NCBI RefSeq assembly: GCF_024462775.1 | Contig: NZ_JANGCE010000034.1 | Span: 1 to 38,369 of the forward strand | Direction of reading: 5' to 3' | Source: Butyricicoccus faecihominis | GTDB taxonomy: Bacteria > Bacillota > Clostridia > Oscillospirales > Butyricicoccaceae | DNA length: 38,369 bases | Part shown: positions 11,682 through 17,577 of the stretch, piece by piece | Layout: each line of letters opens with the position of its first letter | Position numbering within the stretch: the first letter of the stretch is position 1 | Made by a program: the position numbers and the translations under genes | The notes under the pieces: model-generated | The model's database searches: none | What the model saw: only the letters and a program-made list of their open reading frames with translations | What the model was told of the DNA's origin: nothing

Positions 11682-12503
11682 ATGAAAAAATCTATGACGC
11701 AGCGCTTTTACTACAGCATTGCGAGCGGCTCATCGGGCAACTGCGGCCTGTATATGTGCGGCTCCACCGCGATTTTGATCGATCTGGGCGTATCGCTCCG
11801 CAAAATAACGACCGCGCTGCACGAGGTCGGCCTGTCGCTCGACCGAATCGCGGGCGTGGTCATCACGCACGATCATACCGATCATATCAAGGGCCTGCCG
11901 ATGTTCTTGAAAAAAAGTCAGGCGCCGGTCTACGCCTCGGCGGAAACCGCGCTTGCCCTGCATCTCAAGCAGACCGCGCCGGAGGGGCGCCTTACCACGT
12001 TCGAGCCGGGCGAGCGCTTCGGCATCGGCGAGATCGGGGTCACGCCGTTCGACACGCCGCACGACGCGGCGGGCAGCGTGGGCTACATATTGAGCAACGG
12101 CGACACGCGCTTTGGCTTTGCGACCGATCTGGGCTTTGTACCGGGCGAGATTGCCGACCAGCTGCGCGGGTGCGACGCGGTCGTTTTAGAGAGCAACCAC
12201 GATCCGCACATGCTCGCGGCCGGGCCTTATCCCTACATGCTCAAGCAGCGCGTGGGCGGTCCGCGCGGCCATTTGTCCAACCCGGACTGCGCGGTCTGCG
12301 CGGCGGAGCTGGTCAAAAGCGGCACGCGCACGCTGATTCTTGCGCACCTGAGCGAGCATAACAACATGCCCGCGCTCGCGTTGCAGCAAACGCAGCTGGC
12401 GCTCAAGGGCCTTGCGCCCTGCGCGGTGTACATCGCCCCGCGCGAACGCATGGATGCGCCCATTGTCTTAGAGGGAGGCGTGCAATGCTCTTTGTACGAC
12501 TGA
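11682..12503 (+). CDS. walJ: WalJ (YycJ) metallo-beta-lactamase-fold hydrolase
   Basis: This 273-residue protein has the metal-binding motif ITHDHTDHIKG (H63, H65, D67, H68), with a further ligand region around FDTPHDA and a late ILAHLSEHNN histidine. WalJ proteins are cytoplasmic MBL-fold nucleases or hydrolases linked to coordination of cell division with DNA replication; their substrate is not settled. The N-terminus SIASGSSGNC is characteristic of the family. AAAGGAG (11674-11680) is only one base from ATG 11682 and 13 from ATG 11694, so either start is possible. The end overlaps rlmH by 19 bases. Confidence 0.88.
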   Translation: MKKSMTQRFYYSIASGSSGNCGLYMCGSTAILIDLGVSLRKITTALHEVGLSLDRIAGVVITHDHTDHIKGLPMFLKKSQAPVYASAETALALHLKQTAPEGRLTTFEPGERFGIGEIGVTPFDTPHDAAGSVGYILSNGDTRFGFATDLGFVPGEIADQLRGCDAVVLESNHDPHMLAAGPYPYMLKQRVGGPRGHLSNPDCAVCAAELVKSGTRTLILAHLSEHNNMPALALQQTQLALKGLAPCAVYIAPRERMDAPIVLEGGVQCSLYD

Positions 12504-12967
12504 TCTGCGTGGGCAAGCTGGGCGAGCGCTTTTGGGCGGACGCCTGCGCCGAATACCGAAAACGTCTGGGCGCTTACTGCAAGCTGGAAGTGGCCGAGCT
12601 GCCCGAGCAGCGCTTGCCGCAGTCGCCCTCTGAAGGCGAGCTCGCCGCGGCGTTGGAACGCGAAGCCGCGGCGATCGAAGCGCAGCTTTTGCCGGGGGCC
12701 AAGGTAATCGCGCTGTGCGTGGAAGGCAAGACGCTTTCCAGCGAGGCGTTCAGCGCCTACCTGTCGCAGCTCACCGTTTCGGGCGTGAGCCGCCTGTGCG
12801 TACTGATCGGCGGCTCGTGCGGCCTTGCCCCGCGTATCAAGCAACGGGCCGATTTGCGGCTGTCCATGTCGCCGATGACGTTTCCGCACCATCTGGCGCG
12901 CGTCATGGCGCTCGAACAGCTTTACCGCGCGCTGAATATCGCCGCGGGCGGCAAGTATCATAAGTAA
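12485..12967 (+). CDS. rlmH: RlmH, 23S rRNA pseudouridine-1915 N3-methyltransferase
   Basis: RlmH methylates pseudouridine 1915 in helix 69 of 23S rRNA, at the subunit interface. The 160-residue SPOUT-family protein is standard length. It has the SAM-binding loop VLIGGSCGLAPRI and the C-terminal signature SMSPMTFPHHLARVMALEQL, ending in GGKYHK. GGAGGC lies just before ATG 12485. It is the last gene of the wal operon, as in Bacillus and Staphylococcus. Confidence 0.95.
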   Translation: MLFVRLICVGKLGERFWADACAEYRKRLGAYCKLEVAELPEQRLPQSPSEGELAAALEREAAAIEAQLLPGAKVIALCVEGKTLSSEAFSAYLSQLTVSGVSRLCVLIGGSCGLAPRIKQRADLRLSMSPMTFPHHLARVMALEQLYRALNIAAGGKYHK

Positions 12968-13007
12968 GCGGTTCACGCAAACGATCACAAAAGTGCCGAT
13001 AAAATAC

Positions 13008-13035
13008 AAAAAGCTCCTCGGATGAGGAGCTTTTT
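13008..13035. terminator. Bidirectional terminator after rlmH
   Basis: AAAAAGCTCCTC (13008-13019) and GAGGAGCTTTTT (13024-13035) are perfectly complementary. On the plus strand it ends the wal operon. On the minus strand it is followed by TTTTTGTATTTT and would end the short RNA starting near 13155. Confidence 0.92.
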
Positions 13036-13155
13036 GTATGATAGAAATGAAGAAGTGGTCATTGTAATTGAGACGCGGCGCAAGTGGCTTGGCCGCAGTC
13101 TTTGCAGCCGCTCACGGGGAGCGATTACATTTTTGCTCTTCCATGTCACAAGAGC
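13008..13155 (-). ncRNA. Candidate agr-controlled small structured RNA
   Basis: A minus-strand promoter (13162-13190) would start a transcript near 13155 that ends at the terminator 13035-13008, about 150 nt in all. The region folds strongly. Hairpin arms are 13134-13140/13150-13156; 13109-13113/13119-13123; and 13075-13084/13088-13096, the last with one bulged base. TGTAAT (13063-13068) can close the last two against ATTACA (13124-13129), or pair instead with ATTAC at 13159-13163. The RNA would begin exactly at a hairpin and end in a terminator, like RNAIII-type effectors. It could instead carry an 18-residue GTG-started peptide, MSGCKDCGQATCAASQLQ (13115-13059), though no ribosome binding site precedes it. 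Confidence 0.45.
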
Positions 13156-13161
13156 ATGATT

Positions 13162-13227
13162 ACTGTAACATCAAAACCATCGTCTGTAAATACCTTTGAC
13201 GTGAAATGCAATTAACGCGACGTGAAA
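13162..13227 (-). promoter_or_regulatory. LytTR-type box pair and promoter A
   Basis: Two ACGTGAAA elements (plus-strand 13199-13206 and 13220-13227) are exactly 21 bp apart, two turns of the helix. On the minus strand they read TTTCACG and are followed by 9 bp, then TTTACA (13190-13185), 17 bp and TACAGT (13167-13162) with a TG extension. The same layout occurs at 14823-14889. Paired direct repeats just upstream of the -35 are how AgrA, VirR and other LytTR regulators activate promoters. The neighbouring regulator at 14916 is the obvious candidate. Confidence 0.65.
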
Positions 13228-13501
13228 AGGTTTGGAAATAGAAAAATAAAGAAAATTTGCGTGTAAAAGTATGAAAAACACTGTTGATCCTATTCTGTTA
13301 ATGAAATGCTGTAGCAAAAAATATTGCACACTAGCTTAAAATCGATATAAATATATGCCCTCTGGTGCCAGCATAGCGCCAGAGGGCATGTACCAGTGCA
13401 GAAGTGTGTTTGCGTTGTTGTTAATCACAAAGTCATATTAGCAGATATTACATAAGAAGTGCAAGATATAATCTTATTGCGGAATGTCTGAATAATAACT
13501 A
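13228..13501. other. AT-rich intergenic stretch
   Basis: No gene is supported here. It contains a 22-codon ORF at 13271-13339 without a ribosome binding site or promoter, the hairpin at 13355-13389, and a widely spaced inverted repeat of GCAAGATAT (13461-13469 and 13508-13516). The base composition is much more AT-rich than rlmH. Confidence 0.6.
13355..13389 (-). terminator. Hairpin, probable terminator of the leftward agr operon
   Basis: Arms 13355-13368 and 13376-13389 form a 14-bp stem with one G-T pair and a 7-base loop. On the minus strand it is followed by an AT-rich tract (ATATATTTATATCGATTTT), and it lies downstream of the small membrane protein gene. Confidence 0.6.
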
Positions 13502-13813
13502 CTAATAATATCTTGCATTATATAACCTGATAAGATCTCGGGCGAGAAGGAGAAATGGAATTGGAATCATAATAAGCGGTAAAAAACAGCGACTTAGTTT
13601 CCAAGCATCAATAAACAGTCGAAAAATCCATGGAAAGAGAACTGCGTCAAAGTAAAAGTAAAATAAGTACATATTAAAAAGTCGATCAGTCAATCCACCA
13701 GAAATGGAATAGGTTGAAATGCAAAGAGAAACAATAAATCGCAGAACTTCGGCAGCTAAAACAAATAGTATTAAAAAGTATAGATTTACGTTGTGCCGAA
13801 ATATTTTAGACAT
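13502..13813 (-). CDS. Small membrane protein, unknown
   Basis: I do not recognise this 103-residue protein. It is very hydrophobic, with about three membrane segments (near residues 10-34, 48-70 and 78-95) and a positively charged end (LARDLIRLYNARYY). ATG 13813 is chosen because GAGGG precedes it by seven bases; the open frame extends further upstream into the preceding gene without support. It follows the secreted-protein gene by 25 bases, so the two are cotranscribed. A small polytopic protein after an exported one recalls an immunity or secretion partner, but nothing in the sequence proves this. Codon use is AT-rich. Confidence 0.65.
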   Translation of the reverse strand: MSKIFRHNVNLYFLILFVLAAEVLRFIVSLCISTYSISGGLTDRLFNMYLFYFYFDAVLFPWIFRLFIDAWKLSRCFLPLIMIPIPFLLLARDLIRLYNARYY

Positions 13814-13838
13814 TTTTAACCCTCTTATACCAAGAAGC

Positions 13839-14552
13839 TTAATGATAATAGTATTCTCCGGAGTGCCAAGTCGGTTTCCAGTTTGAATAGGGGTCGGGAT
13901 TAACATTTACGCCGTCCCAAGTGGAATAAACATTGAGTGGCCACCCCTGATTTGTGGCAAGCATCATTCTAACCGCATTACCACCGTTATACGCGTTGGA
14001 GAATTTTGTTGTGTCTAATGCGTCAAAAAAGCTATATGTTGAATATAAATAGATAAGAGTAACCCCAGCAGTAGTTAAGGGAACATTATAGCTTTTCTTA
14101 ATCAATGCAGGTATACTGGAAATGGAAATACCAACCCCGATGTAATCTGCTATTGCCTCAACAATACTAGGCTTTGTTTTCGCATAATAAGTAGCTGATG
14201 CTTCATCCTTAGGTAGATAAATACATGCGTATGGAAAGGTAGTAGTAGATGTAGTTCCGAAGGGCGGGGTAAACTCACGCCAACAGCCACCATTTCGATC
14301 AACCAAATTATAGGATGAGGCAGCAAACGGGCTTGCACTGGAATCTGAAACGTAAACTTGGATAGCACCATTACTTACAGTGATTTGTGCGTTCGGATAT
14401 TCAGCTTTGACATCTACAAGTACTTGGTCTAAAGGTGCTTTGTTTTCTTCATTGTAAATAGGCATGTCAGTTTGCAGTTGATCAACAGCAGTTGCGGTTA
14501 AAATGTTTGCAAACATGCCAAATAGGATTAAAGCACTTATAAATCTTTTCAT
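13839..14552 (-). CDS. Secreted protein of unknown family in the agr locus
   Basis: This 237-residue protein has a signal peptide: K2-R3, a hydrophobic core, and an ATA cleavage site at residues 20-22. The mature part has two cysteines (C90 in GGCWREF and C110 in YACIYLP) that could form a disulfide. A hydrophobic, glycine- and serine-rich middle (about 136-165) is followed by an aromatic tail ending WHSGEYYYH. I recognise no catalytic motif. GAGG lies before ATG 14552. Upstream, promoter B carries the LytTR box pair, so it is probably switched on by the agr-type system as an extracellular effector, for example a bacteriocin- or toxin-like protein. That function is inference. Low GC suggests transfer. 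Confidence 0.75.
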   Translation of the reverse strand: MKRFISALILFGMFANILTATAVDQLQTDMPIYNEENKAPLDQVLVDVKAEYPNAQITVSNGAIQVYVSDSSASPFAASSYNLVDRNGGCWREFTPPFGTTSTTTFPYACIYLPKDEASATYYAKTKPSIVEAIADYIGVGISISSIPALIKKSYNVPLTTAGVTLIYLYSTYSFFDALDTTKFSNAYNGGNAVRMMLATNQGWPLNVYSTWDGVNVNPDPYSNWKPTWHSGEYYYH

Positions 14553-14612
14553 AATTACCTCACTTAAATATTAATATATTAATATAAACAAAAAATAAAA
14601 ATAATAAACTTA

Positions 14613-14768
14613 TTAACTTTTTATAACAGCAATACACGCACCTCTTTCATCTGCAACAACACTTCTTAAGACAACGGAGGAAAAATGTTGTCTTAGAAAT
14701 AAAAACAGACTGTTATTTGCTAAAGCGGCATAGACAAGCACGCGGCCTAAAATATTTTTAGGCGCAAT
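14613..14768 (-). CDS. Possible 51-residue peptide with ATT start (agrD-position candidate)
   Basis: A frame of 51 codons lies between promoter B and the secreted-protein gene. A strong AAAGGAGG (plus-strand 14779-14786) sits 10 bases before an ATT codon at 14768; the first conventional start in frame is GTG 14741 (42 residues). The peptide begins IAPKNILGRV, has a hydrophobic middle and ends ERGACIAVIKS. A late cysteine followed by four residues with a hydrophobic end recalls the thiolactone ring of autoinducing peptides. The acidic Pro-Glu tail of AgrD is absent and ATT starts are rare. An alternative TTG start one base on gives only a six-residue peptide. Confidence 0.25.
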   Translation of the reverse strand: MAPKNILGRVLVYAALANNSLFLFLRQHFSSVVLRSVVADERGACIAVIKS

Positions 14769-14816
14769 ATAGTATAGTCCTCCTTTATGGACTTGAAAAA
14801 TTTGTCGCTTTAACGT
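14667..14816 (-). ncRNA. Structured leader of the leftward agr operon
   Basis: The transcript from promoter B has about 260 nt before the secreted-protein gene. Three hairpins can be drawn on the minus strand: AGTCC/GGACT (14793-14776) with the AAAGGA part of a Shine-Dalgarno in its loop; GCCTAAAA/TTTTAGGC (14763-14745); and TAAGACAAC/GTTGTCTTA (14695-14667), whose 11-base loop contains CCTCC. The last loop could pair with GGAGG of this or other messages, as the C-rich loops of staphylococcal RNAIII do. Whether it is a regulatory leader or a processed RNA is open. Confidence 0.4.
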
Positions 14817-14821
14817 ATAAT
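14793..14821 (+). promoter_or_regulatory. Promoter of the agr-type sensor operon
   Basis: TTGAAA (14793-14798) and a consensus TATAAT (14816-14821) are 17 bp apart and point to the response-regulator gene. It overlaps the leftward promoter B back to back. The LytTR boxes at 14861-14889 lie about 35-60 bases downstream of its start, a position that would hinder this transcript. Confidence 0.7.
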
Positions 14822-14822
14822 C

Positions 14823-14889
14823 AATATAACTCAGAGTTTGGAATTTGACAACAGTTTTTCCGTGAAATAGCGTTTAAACGACGTGAAAT
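14823..14889 (-). promoter_or_regulatory. LytTR-type box pair and promoter B
   Basis: CGTGAAAT occurs at 14861-14868 and 14882-14889, 21 bp apart. On the minus strand these are followed by 9 bp, TTGTCA (14851-14846), 17 bp and TATATT (14828-14823). The geometry is identical to promoter A near 13200. It would drive the structured leader, the secreted protein and the membrane protein. The second box is only 27 bp from the start codon of the response regulator. Confidence 0.7.
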
Positions 14890-14915
14890 GCAACGGGTGG
14901 GGAGGGAAGCGCAAA

Positions 14916-15638
14916 ATGGTTTTGCAAGTTGTTGTTTTGGAAGATAACGAATGGGAACTGAAAATGTGCAAGGAAACGATCGAGCAAGCGGCACAGAATA
15001 AAAATATCAATGTTCATGTGACCGGTTGCGTTTCCGGGGCCGACGTTACCGATGAAAGAATCATCGATACCGATATCTTTTTTCTTGACATAGAAACCCC
15101 GGACCGCAGCGGGATCGAGACCGCCAAACAGATCCGCACCATATCGGAGGATGTGCCGATCGTGTTTGTGACCAACCACGGTCAGTATCAAATGGCGGGG
15201 TATTCGGTGCACGCCTATCATTACTTGCTCAAGCCGCTGAAAGAGGGGGACTGCGTAAAGTGCTTGGAGCACGCGGAGCGGTACGCGCGCTTGCGCGAGG
15301 ACGCAAAGCTCGTCATTGCGCAGCGGGGCAAGCAGATCATTCTTTCCTACGCCGATATCCTGTTCGTCGAAGCCATGGACCACGAGTGCCGGATCGTACA
15401 CAATCGGGGCGAGGTCACCTGCCGTATGACCATGTATGAACTGCTGCAAAAGCTGCCGCAGGAGAGCTTTATGCAGTGCCACCGTTCGTATTTGGTCAAT
15501 GTCGATTATGTATCCAAGGTGCTGGGCGCGGAAATGATCCTGAAAAAGGATATTAAGGTGCCGGTAAGCCGCCTGTACCGCGATAAGATTCAGCGCGCCA
15601 CGATTGAACGCATGGAAAGCGTTATAGAAAACCTATGA
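14916..15638 (+). CDS. LytTR response regulator (AgrA/VirR-like)
   Basis: This 240-residue regulator has a receiver domain (phosphoacceptor D58 in FFLDIETPD, lysine in YLLKPLKEGD) and a C-terminal LytTR DNA-binding domain (from about residue 135, with FMQCHRSYLVNVDYVSKV). LytTR proteins bind pairs of short direct repeats about two helical turns apart, as seen at 13199-13227 and 14861-14889. ATG 14916 is preferred because GGAGG (14901-14905) lies ten bases upstream; the frame is open from GTG 14883. The stop overlaps the kinase start (ATGA). With the kinase and AgrB it forms an agr-type peptide-sensing system. Confidence 0.88.
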   Translation: MVLQVVVLEDNEWELKMCKETIEQAAQNKNINVHVTGCVSGADVTDERIIDTDIFFLDIETPDRSGIETAKQIRTISEDVPIVFVTNHGQYQMAGYSVHAYHYLLKPLKEGDCVKCLEHAERYARLREDAKLVIAQRGKQIILSYADILFVEAMDHECRIVHNRGEVTCRMTMYELLQKLPQESFMQCHRSYLVNVDYVSKVLGAEMILKKDIKVPVSRLYRDKIQRATIERMESVIENL

Positions 15639-17005
15639 TAACGGCAATGAACATCTTAATGATCCTTTCCTCCATGCTGGATGCGTCGCTCAAGCTATCC
15701 TTTTATAATACCGTACTTTTGCCGGAGGGAAGTAAATGGGTCCACAAAAAGTGGATCTGTTTTGTTGTGTGCAGCGCTGCGCTCTCGTCTATCATGAGCG
15801 TCTTGCAGGTGTTTTACTTGATCAAATTCGCCATTGTTTTCGTGGGGGAGATCGTATTTTGCTATCTTGTCTCGGAACATAAGCGGTGCGTTTCACTTTG
15901 CCTGCCCGCGTTGGCCAACGCGCTGATGTATATTTGCGAAAGCACGGTGCCGCTCACGCTGTCGGCGCTTTTCAAAATCCCGGTCACGGTGGTGGCGGAT
16001 ACACCGTTTTTTATGGTATACGGGATTCTGGAATCGCGCGGCCTGATGTATTTAGTGCTCGGCGGCACGCTGTTTTTTCTGCATCGCAAGCGGAGCGTGC
16101 CGGATACGCGGCATCTCCGCGCGCCGCAACTGATCTGTCTGAGCGCGGGCGCGGCGTTGCTGGGCGGCAGCGCCACGGCGCTTTCCTATGTGCTGAACAA
16201 TACGGGTGATGTCGGTTATTTTCTGAAAGTGCTGCCGATCGTGCTTTTCGTGCTGCTGGTGCTGATCACCATACTGTTTATTAGCCTGTCGCGCGAGACC
16301 GAGCGGAAATACCGTTTGGAATCCGAAGCCATGCAGCAGGAGAATTTGCAGAGACAGCGTCAGGCGCTTACCGCCATGTACGAAAATATCCTTGGAATGC
16401 GGCACGATCTGAAAAACCATTTGCGAACGCTGGCCGGTCTGCTGGAACAGAGCGAGAGCGGTCAGGCGCTCGAATACGTGAAACAGATATCGGATACCGC
16501 AGAGGGCGCGGGCGTTTGGGTCAATACCGGCAACGCCGCGATTGATTCGCTGCTGCACGCAAAGCTGTCCAGCGCGCGCGAGGCCGGTATCGGGGTACGG
16601 GTCAATCTCAGCCTGCCGGACACAAACGAGGTAAAAACGAGCGACCTTTGCACCGTTCTGTTCAATGTGCTCGATAACGCGATCGAGGCATGCGAGAGGA
16701 ACGCGGATCCAAAAAATCGTTGGCTGCGTCTGATTGTGGCGCAGCAGAGGTACCGGCTGGTCGTTTTCTGCGAGAACCCGAGTGAAAACGAACCCCTAGA
16801 GGGGAAAAACGGCTTCAAAAGCGCCAAGAGCGGCTTGCTGCACGGCATTGGCTTGACGCAGGTCAGGCGCGTGGCCGATAAGTACAACGGCATGTGCGGC
16901 GCGGAATACCATAAGGATACCGGCACCTTCCGCATCACGGTCCTGCTGCCGAACGAATGCGGCGAAACCATAAACATAAGTGTGATAGAGCCTGAAAAGG
17001 AGTAG
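15635..17005 (+). CDS. AgrC-like GHKL sensor histidine kinase
   Basis: This 456-residue kinase has an N-terminal membrane domain of about six helices in its first 220 residues, a coiled linker, and a GHKL kinase core. H257 in GMRHDLKNHLRTL is the expected phosphorylation site. The N box is VLFNVLDNAIEACE (N348) and a G-box is LLHGIGLTQVRRVADKYNG. This is the architecture of AgrC/FsrC/VirS receptors for cyclic peptides. It shares an ATGA overlap with the response regulator and is followed nine bases later by agrB. Its ligand is unknown because no canonical agrD is found nearby. Confidence 0.87.
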   Translation: MITAMNILMILSSMLDASLKLSFYNTVLLPEGSKWVHKKWICFVVCSAALSSIMSVLQVFYLIKFAIVFVGEIVFCYLVSEHKRCVSLCLPALANALMYICESTVPLTLSALFKIPVTVVADTPFFMVYGILESRGLMYLVLGGTLFFLHRKRSVPDTRHLRAPQLICLSAGAALLGGSATALSYVLNNTGDVGYFLKVLPIVLFVLLVLITILFISLSRETERKYRLESEAMQQENLQRQRQALTAMYENILGMRHDLKNHLRTLAGLLEQSESGQALEYVKQISDTAEGAGVWVNTGNAAIDSLLHAKLSSAREAGIGVRVNLSLPDTNEVKTSDLCTVLFNVLDNAIEACERNADPKNRWLRLIVAQQRYRLVVFCENPSENEPLEGKNGFKSAKSGLLHGIGLTQVRRVADKYNGMCGAEYHKDTGTFRITVLLPNECGETINISVIEPEKE

Positions 17006-17013
17006 ACAACGAC

Positions 17014-17577
17014 ATGCTGAAACGATGGAGCGCCTTTCTGGTCCGCTACGGCGTGATCAAGGAAGAGGATGCGGCGGTACAGGAGTACGGCCTGTTCTGC
17101 CTGCTCAATACGCTTGCGTACAATGTCGTGCAGCTGGCGCTGGCGCTTTGGTTCCATGTGCTTTGGCAGACGCTCTGGTTCGATCTGCTGTTCATGCCGC
17201 TGCGCAACTGGGCGGGCGGCTATCATGCGAAAACGCCGCTGCGCTGCTTTGTTCTGAGCAACGCGGTGTGGGCGCTGGCCATGCTGGGCGGACATTACCT
17301 GCCCGCAAGACTGTGTTTGGCGGTGGGGCTGCTGTCGGCGGCCGCGATCTGGCGCATGGCACCGGTCCCGCATGAAAATAATCCGCTCAGCCCCGCGCGG
17401 TTCAAGCTGGCAAAGCGGGTGGCGCGTGGGATCGTGCTGGTAGTGGCGGCCCTTATGTGCGCGCTGCTTTGGCTGCGTGTTGCGGTTTTCGGCAGGCTCG
17501 CCGGGATCGTGCTGTTTTGCACGGCGGTTTCGCTGTGCGTTTGCAAAATGAAGGCGGGGACCCATGGGGAGAGATGA
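17014..17577 (+). CDS. agrB: AgrB, signal-peptide processing membrane protease
   Basis: AgrB cleaves and cyclises the AgrD propeptide in the membrane. The 187-residue protein has several membrane helices and the catalytic motif RNWAGGYHAKTPLRC with H71 and C78. These are seven residues apart, as are H77 and C84 in Staphylococcus aureus. AAGGAG precedes ATG 17014. The C-terminus overlaps the lipase gene by 14 bases. In most Clostridia agrD lies beside agrB; here the next gene is a lipase and no such ORF fits between, which is the main oddity of the locus. Confidence 0.9.
   Translation: MLKRWSAFLVRYGVIKEEDAAVQEYGLFCLLNTLAYNVVQLALALWFHVLWQTLWFDLLFMPLRNWAGGYHAKTPLRCFVLSNAVWALAMLGGHYLPARLCLAVGLLSAAAIWRMAPVPHENNPLSPARFKLAKRVARGIVLVVAALMCALLWLRVAVFGRLAGIVLFCTAVSLCVCKMKAGTHGER

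Follow-up and report, generated by a model that had tools for sequence, protein, structure and literature searches.

We investigated two repeat-bearing promoters in a 38,369-nucleotide contig of Butyricicoccus faecihominis (NZ_JANGCE010000034.1, assembly GCF_024462775.1), here called the window, which lie beside a gene at 14916 for a LytTR response regulator. Judged from the sequence, the whole is best explained if the two sites are operator–promoters of one LytTR-controlled regulon, a reading that we hold with moderate confidence. The first (the 14861 site) precedes a leftward operon, and the second (the 13200 site) probably drives a small non-coding RNA, for which a candidate is described below. 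The initial annotation had the two promoters flanking leftward agr genes, and this has to be corrected: the leftward genes encode an orphan, predicted secreted protein and a membrane protein, whereas lytTR, a kinase gene and agrB run rightward.

Two sites with one promoter geometry

CGTGAAA-N14-CGTGAAA pairs occur exactly twice in the window, at 13200-13227 and 14861-14888, where they had been reported, and no match was found in 100 dinucleotide shuffles of the window. On the minus strand, the 13200 site reads TTTCACG-N14-TTTCACG-TCAAAGGTA-TTTACA-N17-TACAGT and the 14861 site TTTCACG-N14-TTTCACG-GAAAAACTG-TTGTCA-N17-TATATT. Both therefore have the arrangement first described for them, with repeats 21 bp apart, 9 bp from the second box to the −35 element and 17 bp from there to the −10 element, and their N14 spacers do differ. 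The 13200 operator can be extended to TTTCACGTC-N12-TTTCACGTC, with repeats identical at 9/9 positions; it is the only such pair among the loci covered by the box-free scan described below. The genome search that had been suggested, run over 3,686,344 bases in 56 contigs, gave two exact matches to TTTCACG-N14-TTTCACG, both at the window locus and both with the 9/17 promoter (reversed-pattern control: 0). The elements are as follows.

14861–14888, minus strand: LytTR-type operator of the leftward operon, TTTCACG-N14-TTTCACG with 21 bp spacing, upstream of the operon promoter
14823–14851, minus strand: leftward operon promoter, TTGTCA-17-TATATT, 9 bp past the second box, with a predicted start near 14816
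13200–13227, minus strand: second LytTR-type operator, unchanged in the same-species genome
13162–13190, minus strand: second leftward promoter, TTTACA-17-TACAGT, with TG before the −10
14793–14821, plus strand: rightward lytTR promoter, TTGAAA-17-TATAAT (11/12)

At that fixed offset, a −35/−10 pair passed the scan rule at 25 of 76,598 window positions and, within the local AT-rich stretch, at 5 of 3,862, both sites being counted in each figure; finding it at both repeat pairs is thus unlikely by chance. Singly, both promoters are unremarkable: 12400–15100 holds 7 promoter-like sites against 6.0 expected from shuffles. Because such pairs are no commoner than in shuffles, the weight rests on their fixed position behind the repeats. 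Both sites look like LytTR-type operator–promoters under the control of an activator.

The −10 element of the rightward lytTR promoter abuts that of the leftward promoter, and the 14861 operator lies inside the 5′ untranslated region of lytTR. With their −10 elements abutting, the two promoters are expected to be mutually exclusive in use, and leftward activation should damp the lytTR promoter.

The same operator and geometry elsewhere in the genome

When up to two mismatches were allowed, the TTTCACG pair was found at 55 places in the window genome (G000), compared with 36 for the reversed-pattern control. We examined the flanks of all 55 sites, and of 16 of the 56 in a second genome of the species (G004), namely those with loci or in fetched regions; nine loci from other organisms (L064–L072) were excluded from the geometry count. 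Eight of the 10 sites with 0–1 mismatch have a −35/−10 pair at exactly 9/17, compared with none of the 45 two-mismatch sites. The eight are the two window sites, three on contig C54 and three on contig C23 (the window is C28); of the remaining two, one precedes the agrD of C54 and one is a chance match. Counting the C54 agrD site, the operator set comprises nine sites at three loci. According to the initial annotation, the two promoters probably define the regulon of the 14916 protein at this locus: both are indeed LytTR-type, but the set is larger. On C54 there are four sites, the agrD one adjoining its own LytTR gene, whose product is 45% identical to the 14916 protein. The operator before this divergent agrD is exact in G004 and has one mismatch in the window genome; it departs from 9/17 in having a poor −35 and an extended-type −10 at 16 bp.

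The six C54 and C23 promoters are copies of one unit, a promoter with a conserved leader of ~100 nt, and are therefore not independent confirmations. Downstream of the sites, the encoded proteins include ones predicted to be secreted or membrane-bound, and most of them match no Pfam family; among them is a membrane protein of the CPBP/Rce1-like kind (PF02517, E = 4e-20), a family that takes in bacteriocin-immunity proteins. This suggests, on gene content, secreted-factor/immunity cassettes behind the sites.

Six unit copies in the window genome, C54 and C23: L059 3115, 4393 and 8363; L058 7707, 6994 and 5811

This operator–promoter–leader unit stands before different genes, in six copies in the window genome and one in G004 (L061 7892), and the sequence diverges downstream of it after ...CCCCTTGTCTT. 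Leader tails also stand alone, inverted, on C54 and are REP-like. Covariation in the consensus structure of the leader was close to nil, with a term of 0.07 kcal/mol and 2 of 18 pairs changed on both sides.

The spacing recurs with other boxes. At C17, a further paralogous locus, ATTCGTG and ATTCATG stand 21 bp apart and 9 bp before TTGTTA-17-TATACT, ahead of the agrD there, making ATTCRTG a third box kind with 21/9/17. At the C8 agr locus, CAGTTGTTG/CAGTTATTG (box kind CAGTTRTTG, from the box-free scan) with TAGACA-17-TATAAT lie between a divergent LytTR-like regulator gene and agrB–agrD. That scan covered repeat spacings of 14–30 bp beside a promoter in seven sequences picked for holding agr loci or sites; 21 bp was found at 15 start positions (7 distinct sites), 18, 28 and 30 bp at 2 each, and other spacings at none. 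In the loci scanned, this suggests that 21/9/17 is a motif-free signature catching LytTR-type promoters with differing boxes.

Among 84,980 species genomes, a collection outside which the window's own genome may lie, TTTCACGTC-N12-TTTCACG-NN-AAA matched 9 stretches, none of which had a 9/17 promoter by eye. None of the open reading frames (ORFs) of four of these nine was recognized as LytTR or AgrB from its first 70 residues, without a profile search. We treated all nine as chance rather than as further spread of the operator.

As a separate observation, the C54-type LytTR protein (L010 6572–7294 in G004, and its equivalent in the window genome) has PVSES where three other aligned regulators have PVSR, in the region where AgrA has a DNA-contact arginine. 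Its site carries the same box despite PVSES.

The flanking genes and the same-species genome

The rightward and leftward genes are listed here in that order.

14916–15638, plus strand: LytTR response regulator, Pfam Response_reg and LytTR (PF04397, E = 1.3e-22); leading candidate for both operators
15635–17005, plus strand: AgrC-like GHKL sensor kinase (PF14501, E = 3.1e-16)
17014–17577, plus strand: AgrB peptidase (PF04647, E = 1.2e-32)
14553–14816, minus strand: operon leader, 264 nt, with two hairpins, CCTAAAA-ATA-TTTTAGG and AAGACAAC-loop-GTTGTCTT
13839–14552, minus strand: orphan protein of 237 aa, predicted to be secreted; its N-terminus resembles a signal peptide (by eye)
13502–13813, minus strand: ~103-aa hydrophobic small membrane protein, possibly an immunity or partner protein

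A LytTR regulator thus does adjoin the sites, and agrB, an agrC-like kinase gene and an agrA-like regulator gene stand together, followed by a weakly recognized alpha/beta hydrolase gene. The 14916 protein scored 39.8 bits against the NCBIfam AgrA model (NF046049), short of its curated cut-off of 400. Orthologues were found in 2 of 87 genomes of the family (E ≤ 1e-45), both of this species, and in 2 of 25 genomes of the genus (E ≤ 1e-30), and a search for related loci found none. A rightward TTGA(A/T)A-17/18-TATAAT promoter, with its −10 element 85–94 nt before the lytTR start, was present at all five loci examined (the window, its G004 equivalent, both C54-type loci and C17).

A profile search of the window genome for agrD (TIGR04223, E up to 1) gave no match on C28, matches above the cut-off on C8, C54 and C23, and matches below it on C17 and C21; the C17 agrD is above the cut-off in G004. 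AgrB was found on C8, C23 and the window contig, and AgrD on C8, C23 and C54 (with C17 below the cut-off). Two agrD loci thus have no agrB, and the window has agrB without agrD; given this uneven distribution, one AgrB may serve several precursors. In the window, the 264-nt leader occupies the place that agrD has in the paralogous loci C54 and C17. Its AAAGGAGG resembles a Shine-Dalgarno sequence, though no good start codon goes with it; one hairpin of the leader has a CCTCC loop. The first leftward frame (51 codons if read from an ATT) was considered as AgrD-like and rejected, having no good start and no profile match.

The 237-aa protein matched no Pfam or NCBIfam family and no plasmid or phage, and among 394 genomes of the order only its own encodes it; an AlphaFold model made without relatives had a mean pLDDT of 32.7 and was not usable. 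For the membrane protein, the listed 134-aa ORF begins at 13906, but the ATG at 13813 has the better ribosome-binding site (by eye). The 134-aa form also had no Pfam or NCBIfam match. Beyond the operon, at 13358–13393, lies a strong inverted repeat, GCCCTCTGGTGCC...GCGCCAGAGGGC, which may, with its weak U-tract, terminate the operon.

G004 has flanking DNA 98.9–99.6% identical to that of the window and lacks the 1.5 kb that separates the two promoters, and with it the leftward operon. Of the 28 bp of the operator at the 14861 position, 8 differ, and the −35 and −10 elements of the leftward promoter are altered too, whereas the 72 aligned positions past the operator show no change and the rightward lytTR promoter has been preserved. 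Nothing differs at the 13200 site, neither in operator and promoter nor in the RNA region, and the 14916 protein is 100% identical. Since the 14861 operator has decayed where the operon is absent and the 13200 unit is unchanged, the former goes with the operon and the latter is independent of it; either loss of the operon in G004 or its gain in the window genome would fit. G004 also has an exact TTTCACG-N14-TTTCACG promoter before another small-protein operon (L060 6811, C1:666783); in the window genome there is no exact match beyond the two described. On these comparisons, the cassettes differ between strains.

A candidate small RNA at the 13200 site

The 13162–13190 promoter is directed not at the operon but at the gap on the rlmH side, and its transcript would run into an inverted repeat within ~150 nt. 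From this arrangement, it probably drives a small non-coding RNA.

12999–13155, minus strand: candidate small RNA, a body of ~120 nt and a terminator hairpin
13004–13039, strand unassigned: inverted repeat (A-run, GC stem, T-run) that could terminate in both directions, common to rlmH

The repeat matches itself on the other strand at 89%, and the fold agrees; it is outside the terminator-like sites of a simple scan, whose rule needs a T-run after the stem. For the full 158 nt (13156 to 12999) the folding energy is −62.1 kcal/mol (z −7.4); the body alone (117 nt) has z −3.7, its reverse strand z −1.8. By eye, the candidate contains no convincing ORF with a ribosome-binding site, and Rfam 15 gave no match at gathering score in the window. 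Homologues were found in 11 of 87 family genomes (E ≤ 0.01), of which nine matches are short, nearly all of them confined to the 3′ end and terminator (one is 28 bp of the body). This 3′ end (~13002–13063, the terminator hairpin and at most ~24 nt before it) is also copied elsewhere in the window genome at 77–82% identity, at C19:24460–24526 and at C23:17349, 17870 and 19766, the latter three within the stretch that holds LytTR sites; it is perhaps a repeated terminator element.

Weighing the proposed regulon against other explanations

A first alternative holds that the 13200 promoter is left over from an operon since lost, with the rlmH terminator now cutting it short, and makes no functional RNA. 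The lack of an ORF with a ribosome-binding site and of a full-length homologue outside the species would fit, as would the variable gene content of the locus, where 1.5 kb is absent from G004. Nevertheless, the 9/9-identical repeats have stayed unchanged in G004, where the neighboring operon is gone and its operator decayed, and the RNA region folds at full length with z −7.4; we find a relic possible but doubtful.

That the promoters are LytTR-controlled, yet bound by the paralogous LytTR of C54 (or C23) and not by the 14916 protein, would suit the abundance of sites on those contigs (four, including the agrD site beside its own LytTR gene, and three, respectively) and the 45% identity of the C54 paralogue. 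It is rather unlikely, set against the complete conservation of the 14916 protein together with the 13200 site in G004. The earlier proposal of the 14916 protein as regulator thus keeps its place as the leading candidate, but a paralogue with the same operator is a candidate as well.

A short ATG frame does occur in the predicted 13200 transcript, and the promoter might drive a very short peptide (e.g., the 10-codon MEEQKCNRSP) or a longer frame that continues into the hairpin of the terminator. With no Shine-Dalgarno sequence ahead of the short frame (by eye) and no AgrD profile match on the contig, we regard this as very improbable. Chance repeats without regulation, which the abundant and mostly random two-mismatch sites (55 against 36 in the control) might suggest, are hardly credible and were rejected, given that the exact pairs are unique, share one promoter geometry and have that geometry repeated at other agr loci with different boxes.

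Several observations weigh against the single regulon that we favor. The same operator adjoins a 45%-identical LytTR gene and elsewhere has another, 24% identical, in its vicinity, which leaves more than one candidate for the cognate regulator; agrD was not found at the window locus, which bears on the inducing peptide; and the six additional promoters on C54 and C23 amount to one duplicated unit. As for the RNA, its body is only moderately stabler than shuffles (5 of 86 background windows were as low), and among 87 family genomes only the two of this species have it at full length. RNA–mRNA pairing over 13 start regions (12 window genes and one alternative start) yielded no target that stood out, the best ranks being 7 and 10 of 200 shuffles. 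Because the two strains are ~99% identical, identity of the 13200 unit between them proves little by itself and is weak evidence of selection.

On the single-regulon reading, a phosphorylated LytTR dimer, most likely of the 14916 protein and driven by the 15635 kinase upon sensing a cyclic peptide, would bind the TTTCACG boxes, which stand two helical turns from each other and immediately before the −35 element, and recruit RNA polymerase. At the 14861 site, this would switch on the operon of the secreted and membrane proteins and, we infer, also reduce the activity of the lytTR promoter, putting a simple brake on the regulator. At the 13200 site, it would yield a short structured RNA ending at the rlmH terminator, which is probably regulatory, as are VR-RNA, RNAIII and SpoZ. 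The operator would act as well before agrD at the paralogous locus and in the six promoter–leader copies before secreted and membrane genes. With the operator at agrD and in these units, the regulon would seem to combine one small RNA with a set of secreted proteins that varies between strains, all under quorum control.

Relation to known systems

The geometry agrees with that of LytTR regulatory-system operons, whose 9-bp repeats mostly have 12 bp between them and are strongly biased towards lying 10 bp from the −35 (PMC6193735). The 9 bp after the 7-mer here equal 10 bp after a 9-mer ending in CAC, which fits that bias, and two of the Clostridia examples listed there have TTTACA-17-TATAAT. 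HdrR/BrsR-type systems and bacteriocin promoters likewise share the 9-bp repeats, the mostly 12-bp gap and, often, the −35 distance (PMC6193735). For the broad LytTR consensus, a comparison by eye and without a statistic gave 4/9 positions for GCATTTCAC against the ACCACTTAC-type boxes printed there. HdrR/BrsR-type regulators, however, pair with an inhibitory membrane protein, whereas the one here stands with a kinase and AgrB.

RgaR of Clostridioides difficile is a direct activator of agrB1D1, of further small targets and of the small RNA SpoZ; the critical G residues stand at −51 and −72, 21 bp apart (PMC10602386). RgaS–RgaR resembles the present system in three respects: its regulator is LytTR/VirR-like, direct repeats stand in pairs before agr genes, small targets and a small RNA, and the agr parts are not all at one locus (PMC10602386). 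There are also differences: the regulator and kinase genes are adjacent here, agrB is without agrD, and the candidate RNA is ~150 nt compared with ~530–560 nt for SpoZ (PMC10602386).

The box here differs from the VirR box of Clostridium perfringens, few targets here have a Pfam family, and the regulator gene lies beside agrB, unlike in VirR/VirS. Shared features are the two boxes before the −35, the fixed helical phase, direct control of regulatory RNA (predicted here) and strain-variable accessory targets; VirR boxes lie just upstream of the −35 in fixed helical phase and control VR-RNA, virT and virU (PMC2838878).

The agr system of Staphylococcus aureus includes agrB, and its RNAIII is ~514 nt (the candidate here is ~150 nt). 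AgrA P2/P3 and our sites share a LytTR regulator and direct repeats in a two-promoter intergenic region (PMC4227749). The −35/−10 spacers there are 18 and 20 nt in P2 and P3 (PMC4227749), as opposed to 17 here, and no agrD was found in our locus.

The layout is thus known from other bacteria, whereas this target set appears to be new; what is particular here is the missing agrD, an operator common to several agr-type loci and the strain-variable cassettes. Our literature search, outside which subscription papers mostly lay, returned no title on such a system among the matches listed. We tentatively entertain a non-classical quorum circuit in which one operator is common to several agr-type loci: an agrD-less agrB–kinase–regulator module might hear peptides from elsewhere in the genome and drive a species-specific RNAIII-like RNA together with rapidly exchanged orphan secreted-protein cassettes with membrane partners, perhaps bacteriocin-like with immunity proteins. 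The two sites would offer a compact regulon for agr-type signaling, for which G004, without the operon and with a decayed operator, is a natural comparison, and the predicted small effector RNA would stand beside RNAIII, VR-RNA, VirT, VirU and SpoZ.

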